A stretch of 64,000 nt of DNA from Pseudoflavonifractor sp. MSJ-37 (GTDB taxonomy: Bacteria; Bacillota; Clostridia; Oscillospirales; Oscillospiraceae). The notes beneath the pieces were generated by a model. It was not told the origin of the DNA and did no database searches. It was given only the letters and a program-made list of their open reading frames with translations. A program made the translations under genes and the position numbers. Positions 10,136 through 10,548 of the stretch are shown here, piece by piece. The stretch lies in the NCBI RefSeq assembly GCF_018917965.1, contig NZ_JAHLPP010000006.1, positions 1 to 64,000 of the forward strand, read 5' to 3'. How positions within the stretch are numbered: the first letter of the stretch is position 1; the number at the start of each line of letters is the position of its first letter.

Positions 10136-10189
10136 CTCTTTTACCTCCTAATAGTTATTTATGTTGTACCCGCCTCCGCGGGAGGAACA

Positions 10190-10241
10190 CAAACGAAAAG
10201 ACGCCTTCAAGACATGGTTTCTCCATGCTCGAAAGCGTCTG
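10190..10241 (-). terminator. Terminator-like hairpin inside the SLH gene leader (candidate attenuator)
   Basis: On the minus strand an 18-bp stem with one bulge (arm AGACGCTTTCGAGCATGG, then loop AGAAA) is followed by TTTCGTTTG. It lies between the promoter and the SLH gene, 55 bases before the start codon, so it would stop leader transcripts unless disrupted. The stop codon of the leader frame (10207-10209) falls in its 3' arm. Confidence 0.75.
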
Positions 10242-10425
10242 CGTATTTCGGATAAAAGAGGCTGTGGGCAGTGCAAAAGGACAGAGTTTTATCTGCTCTG
10301 CTCTGCTCTGCTCTGCTCTGCTCTGCTCTGCTCTGCTCTGCTCTGCTCTGCTCTGCTCTGCTCTGCTCTGCTCTGCTCTGCTCAAGCATACGGGCAGGGG
10401 CGGGGGCTGTCAAGGTCTTTTTCAT
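10207..10425 (-). CDS. Leader reading frame spanning the pentanucleotide repeat
   Basis: A 72-codon frame begins at the ATG at 10425 with AAAGGAG ten bases upstream (protein start [15 protein letters not shown]). It continues through the 5-base repeat as six SRAEQ-like periods and ends in the 3' arm of the terminator-like hairpin. None of the three frames through the repeat contains a stop, so each gain or loss of one unit changes where translation ends: one unit fewer gives TAA right after the repeat, one more carries translation through the hairpin to 10155, five bases before the Shine-Dalgarno of the SLH gene. It looks like a regulatory leader peptide, not a functional protein. The promoter and ribosome-binding site are seen in the sequence; its translation is inferred. 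Confidence 0.55.
10292..10383. repeat. Pentanucleotide simple-sequence repeat, about 18 copies
   Basis: A 92-base uninterrupted tract of TCTGC (AGCAG/CAGAG on the other strand). It lies in the transcribed leader of the SLH surface-protein gene, about 85 bases after the predicted transcription start. Such tracts change length by slipped-strand mispairing in other bacteria, where they drive phase variation. Confidence 0.95.
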
Positions 10426-10475
10426 GTTCCACCCGCTCCTTTCCGCGTCAAGATCTATCGTTTTTCTACGATAAA

Positions 10476-10504
10476 AGTATATCATATTTTCCATTCCGTC
10501 GCAA
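10476..10504 (-). promoter_or_regulatory. Promoter of the SLH protein leader
   Basis: On the minus strand TTGCGA (10504-10499), 17 bases, then TATACT (10481-10476) with an extended TGA just before it. This predicts a leader of about 330 bases containing the repeat and the hairpin. Confidence 0.75.
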
Positions 10505-10548
10505 CCATCTGTGCCCGAACTGTCGTATTTCGGGCCTGAATAGCAGTG

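Follow-up and report, generated by a model that had tools for sequence, protein, structure and literature searches.

A phase-variable leader attenuator predicted upstream of a BspA/SLH surface-protein gene in Pseudoflavonifractor sp. MSJ-37

What does a long tract of identical five-base repeats do inside a short reading frame just upstream of a large surface-protein gene, and could its length decide whether that gene is expressed? The locus lies in a window of 64,000 nt (Pseudoflavonifractor sp. MSJ-37, contig NZ_JAHLPP010000006.1, positions 1 to 64,000), and all of its parts are on the minus strand. The tract is a perfect (AGAGC)18.4 array at 10292..10383 (Tandem Repeats Finder: period 5, 100% matches, score 184), made of 17 full units plus partial units and free of stop codons in every frame, in agreement with an initial annotation that had counted about 18 stop-free copies. 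Four exact units in a row occur at this single place in the whole 2.58-Mb, 18-contig genome. The leader frame with its own ribosome-binding site, as previously proposed, is also there: the Shine-Dalgarno sequence AAAGGAG (10436..10442), read from the sequence, stands 10 nt before an ATG (10425-10423), from which the frame, with the repeat as sequenced, runs for 72 codons (10207..10425). The gene that follows (6803..10135), preceded by AGGAGG and starting with ATG at 10135, encodes a 1110-aa BspA-type LRR/Ig-like/SLH surface protein. Its identification as an SLH/BspA protein is borne out by Pfam, which gives LRR_5 (BspA type), SLH, Flg_new_2 and Ig_3 above the cut-offs, and Ig_2, Flg_new and LRR_8 below them. 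A separate tandem repeat at 63822-63990 has a 39-bp unit in 4.3 copies and, by eye, is His/Asp-rich when read from the unit's first base.

Recomputing the frames gives the three outcomes that had been claimed. At the present length the leader ends at a TGA (10207..10209); with one unit fewer it ends at a TAA (10289..10291), 3 nt past the array; with one unit more it ends at a TAA at 10155..10157, and the AGGAGG of the surface gene lies five bases further on. A fusion of leader and surface protein is impossible because an in-frame TAG (10150-10148) precedes the surface-gene ATG. The array-bearing leader and the surface protein are separate ORFs, and the locus does not have the in-gene repeat of the modS type.

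Between array and surface gene, folding gives a terminator-like hairpin of 18 bp with a one-base bulge, followed by TTTCGTTTGTGT (10199..10240). The surrounding 91 nt fold at -39.5 kcal/mol (z -4.74), with 0/200 shuffles equally stable, and folding 60 nt gives -26.5 kcal/mol. The T-run on its 3' side is interrupted, TTTTCGTTTGTG, and the terminator is a putative one. On the minus strand a simple terminator scan left the hairpin unflagged, probably because its search pattern disallows a one-base bulge in the stem. Relative to the hairpin, the computed ends of the three frames differ: the present TGA is within it, the one-more TAA beyond it and the one-fewer TAA 51 nt before it. The initial annotation had seen the overall layout and missed this hairpin (10240-10199), the TAG described above and the promoter-like site P2 discussed below.

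We consider it probable, at roughly 0.8, that the locus is a phase-variable leader attenuator of the kind described for pil1 in Streptococcus gallolyticus, a mechanism already known and proven in one streptococcal species. Transcription would begin upstream of the leader ATG and the ribosome would read the leader through the array, while slipped-strand mispairing, as we infer for MSJ-37, would gain or lose five-base units and thereby shift the frame after the array. In the OFF state the ribosome would halt well before the hairpin, which would then form and end most transcripts. In the other two frames it would stop in or beyond the hairpin, holding it open, and the SLH/BspA gene would be transcribed. 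Since by the pil1 rule a stop inside the hairpin means high expression, the present length is predicted to be ON, one unit more is likewise predicted ON, and one state in three, that with one unit fewer, is predicted OFF. The earlier proposal that the number of repeats determines the distance ribosomes cover in the leader holds, and that this in turn sets expression is very probable; the target, however, is likely a transcription terminator inside the leader and not mainly the approach to the Shine-Dalgarno sequence.

That approach is central to an alternative close to the initial annotation's reading, translational coupling without a terminator, which we regard as unlikely. Here only the frame ending at 10157-10155 would reach the surface-gene Shine-Dalgarno sequence or open an RNA stem covering it. 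The short distance from that TAA to the AGGAGG speaks for coupling, as does the predicted pairing, in untranslated RNA, of 10260-10251 with the segment before the surface-gene ATG (10136..10145; pair probabilities 0.80-0.95). However, across 23 nonredundant loci the stretch after the array shows no significant pairing with the ribosome-binding site of the following gene (878/10000 permutations), and the feature that recurs is the terminator. Coupling could also act alongside attenuation, and the pairing of 10145-10136 with 10260-10251 is a possible second layer of control at this locus.

The layout recurs across Bacillota. The repeat alone matched in 8/400, 4/393, 7/398 and 10/397 genomes of the family, the class, the phylum and another family of the class, counts that include MSJ-37 in the first three sets, some imperfect matches and overlap between the sets. 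A promoter-plus-array pattern demanding TTGACA, TANNNT and three units gathered at least 117 stretches from GTDB genomes, including Lachnospiraceae, Oscillospiraceae, Enterococcus, Streptococcus and Lactococcus. For layout statistics we retained the 75 elements with upstream and downstream flanks of 60 and 640 nt, which reduce to 44 nonredundant ones; the filters are coarse, and with redundancy removed only at 55% identity some elements still share ancestry. After the array, 21/44 have a hairpin terminator at dG <= -20, compared with 1/44 further downstream and 1/43 upstream, and at dG <= -15 the counts are 25/44, 2/44 and 7/43. A looser, redundant count over the 89 elements (from 127) that had a 200-nt downstream flank gives 75/89 vs 25/80.

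The 25 nonredundant elements with a terminator at dG <= -15 define the leader type. Every one of them has a frame that stays open past the terminator or at least up to 6 nt from it (shuffled mean 20.0, 0/500 reaching 25), and 20 of the 25 combine such a frame with a stop no more than 12 nt from the array (shuffled 10.7, 0/500). A Shine-Dalgarno sequence and a start open into the array are found in 22 of the 25 (shuffled mean 3.9, 0/300). Among hand-picked leader-type loci (a redundant set, n = 42), a same-strand ORF follows within 1 kb in 40, and 27 of these 40 ORFs have a signal-like N-terminus compared with 30/146 of the other ORFs at those loci. Pfam searches with nine of the following proteins returned examples with LPXTG, SpaA, Big_2, and LRR_5 plus SLH, two being without a match; in L038, a member of the nonredundant set, the array likewise precedes a BspA/SLH protein. 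About ten loci among the matches listed seem, by eye, to run from the array directly into a coding frame. An RNA stem between the Shine-Dalgarno/TTGACA region and the post-array stretch was also considered as a general feature and rejected: permuted pairs reach the observed mean in 1451/10000 trials over 49 nonredundant elements, among which MSJ-37 ranks 36, and the stem is striking in single loci.

Unit number differs between closely related viral loci: L208 has 10 units and L213 has 9, with 145/150 nt identical on each side, and L221, with similar flanks (119 and 148 of 150 nt), has 24. In L221 the frame runs on from the array into a protein that matches sigma-70 region 4. The Lactococcus chungangensis locus L037 has 65 AGAGC units, and 370 nt on comes the first ORF of that strand, with a match to Peptidase_M73 (camelysin). 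In three termite-gut MAGs many contigs end in or within a few bases of an AGAGC array (L033, L034, L043, L065, L107, L108 and others), so that counts from draft genomes probably underestimate the number of these switches.

In a quite improbable alternative, promoter, repeat and terminator would form a small non-translated RNA gene transcribed from P2 and the leader frame would be incidental. P2 is near consensus with its predicted start on the array, and in L010, L012 and L027 the terminator appears, by eye, to be followed by an oppositely read gene. However, the starts open into the array and the post-array frame pattern point to translation, and Rfam, which covers described families, gave no match at E <= 1 in 9000-12000. 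Also by eye, a secreted-protein gene comes after the oppositely read gene in L012 and L027, and L010 stands after an integrase-like gene. That the array is a neutral intergenic tandem repeat, with hairpin and frames arising by chance, would suit the sporadic occurrence of the tracts and is very improbable, because unit, promoter spacing, frame pattern and terminator recur in diverged flanks.

Conservation within the genus lends no support to the attenuator reading. The surface protein has matches in all 10 genus genomes; among the matches listed, it is full length only in MSJ-37 and only its second half is covered in the others, so that gene and switch look accessory. The AGAGC tract is absent from 8/8 of the other same-genus genomes listed in the repeat search. 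A locus from the same family, L010, has 9 units and is 84% identical to MSJ-37 from the array end through the hairpin; its flanks are identical to those of L088 (Oscillibacter sp. MSJ-31) over 150/150 nt on each side.

The minus strand carries two promoter-like sites at this locus, compared with a mean of 0.3 in shuffles. P1 (10476..10504; TTGCGA, 17, TATACT, with TG before the second hexamer) precedes the leader start and is a candidate promoter by its 9/12 consensus matches. P2 (10385..10413; TTGACA, 17, TATGCT), likewise assigned by consensus, abuts the array, and its predicted start falls within it. P2 is unlikely to serve leader translation, since an RNA starting in the array has no start codon there.

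Is this placement peculiar to MSJ-37? The AGAGC tracts found by the repeat alone and used for this comparison number 15 in bacteria and 50 in viruses, or 13 and 28 after removal of redundancy; the bacterial set excludes contig-end tracts (e.g. L011, L171), repeat entries for a single locus and matches lacking four clean units (e.g. L164-L167, L174-L176, L180). In 10/13 bacterial and 10/28 viral tracts the array is preceded, at 28-37 nt, by an exact TTGACA, compared with 2/424 and 1/863 control windows. In 19 of those 20 tracts the TTGACA is followed 16-18 nt on by a hexamer whose second base is A and whose sixth is T (shuffled mean 3.66, 0/2000). These -10 hexamers are often poor, with 3 of 6 bases in 7/20. 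On viral contigs, TTGACA lies 20-44 nt before three AGAGC units in 17 loci, and permuted hexamers give 1 and 0. Several AGAGC tracts sit inside genes for C5 methyltransferases or a PAPS-reductase-domain protein.

Tracts of CAGA tell a similar story: TTGACA occurs 24-40 nt upstream in 30/34 nonredundant arrays, with a peak at 31-33, and a -10 accompanies it in 29/30, most of these loci having been selected for TTGACA and not for distance or -10. The raw tally of TTGACA preceding CAGA tracts (83 loci, compared with 5 for ACATTG and 5 in reversed orientation) was rejected as evidence because TTGACA overlaps the array edge in 19/34 nonredundant arrays; the CAGA case rests instead on the distance peak and the -10 test.

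A phage C5 methyltransferase family collected by protein similarity, with 41 of 52 members carrying the anchor and 11 lacking it, gives the cleanest test of the association, in a set where some members, such as L236 and L237, are near-identical. Among its tetra- and pentanucleotide tracts, 12/15 have an exact TTGACA 29-33 nt upstream together with a -10; two of the remaining three have 5 of 6 bases plus a -10, and one is without. The poly-G tracts have neither an exact TTGACA (0/7) nor a -10 (0/7), with a 5-of-6 match in 3/7, and one seven-base tract also has neither element. In repeat-free homologs, TTGACA is found anywhere in 170 nt in 1/18. The protein sequence does not explain the TTGACA, because its codon frame differs between genes. 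At one and the same site the methyltransferases (L236-L287) have differing units: AGAGC, CAGA, GAAC, AACGG, GAACA, a seven-base unit and poly-G. The 77 tracts in coding context belong to no more than 13 protein families, of which 8 have TTGACA, so that loci greatly outnumber independent events.

That AGAGC and CAGA tracts, also those in phage genes, carry a sigma-A-like promoter with a predicted start on the first repeats is well supported at the sequence level, and the linkage appears to be new: among the open-access papers listed in literature searches, none concerned a promoter aimed at such repeats. More tentatively, and at somewhat under even odds, we suggest that contingency repeats of Bacillota and their phages may have their own sigma-A promoter, directed at the first unit, whose job would be mutability and not expression, P2 being one example. 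Opening by the polymerase, scrunching or an R-loop at the array would expose single strands and so increase slippage. Against this proposal stand the often poor -10s, the small number of families, and the finding that in pil1 activity was detectable only from the promoter upstream of the leader (PMC3894217). If a repeat-aimed promoter does set the slippage rate, bacteria and phages would place mutation hotspots by promoter placement. For the leader attenuator itself, a switch proven in one streptococcal species would extend to a recurrent surface-protein design of Bacillota, with ON and OFF states predictable from the DNA.

How, then, does the MSJ-37 locus compare with known switches? In trp-type leader-peptide attenuation an amino acid is the input. 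The present locus would share with such systems that ribosome position decides terminator formation (PMC3894217), and would differ in having a heritable repeat length as its input. The type III methyltransferases modS of Streptococcus suis use a GAGCA tract, the same unit as AGAGC, and are likewise switched ON and OFF by tract length in steps of five; however, that tract switches the gene from inside, in the protein's own frame, whereas the MSJ-37 repeat is in a separate leader (PMC8125046).

The closest relatives are the pil1 and pil3 leader attenuators (Danne et al. 2014, PMC3894217). The initial annotation had called a leader-peptide version of phase variation unusual; it has a precedent in pil1, demonstrated in 2014 with this repeat unit. 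The pil1 leader ORF of 38 aa contains 22 GCAGA repeats and is followed by a hairpin and then the pilus genes. With 21 or 23 repeats the leader terminates 4 bp short of the hairpin or within it, and expression is high; with 22 it stops 49 bp before it (39 in a legend) and expression is low. Deleting the hairpin locks expression high, removing the leader start makes it low, and added stops give a single low state, slightly above the authors' expectation. The authors showed that translation of the leader prevents premature termination (PMC3894217). The likeness to MSJ-37 extends to the five-base unit, GCAGA being AGAGC rotated, to an array in a short leader ORF with a ribosome-binding site, to a terminator-like hairpin separating leader and surface gene, and to a single frame in three that stops well short of the hairpin, at 51 nt in MSJ-37, the others stopping in or near it. 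The two differ in host, Streptococcus gallolyticus and an Oscillospiraceae gut bacterium, and in target, a pilus operon in pil1 and a BspA/SLH protein in MSJ-37. They may also differ in that a near-consensus P2 abuts the MSJ-37 array, whereas for pil1 detectable activity is reported only from the promoter upstream of the leader (PMC3894217).
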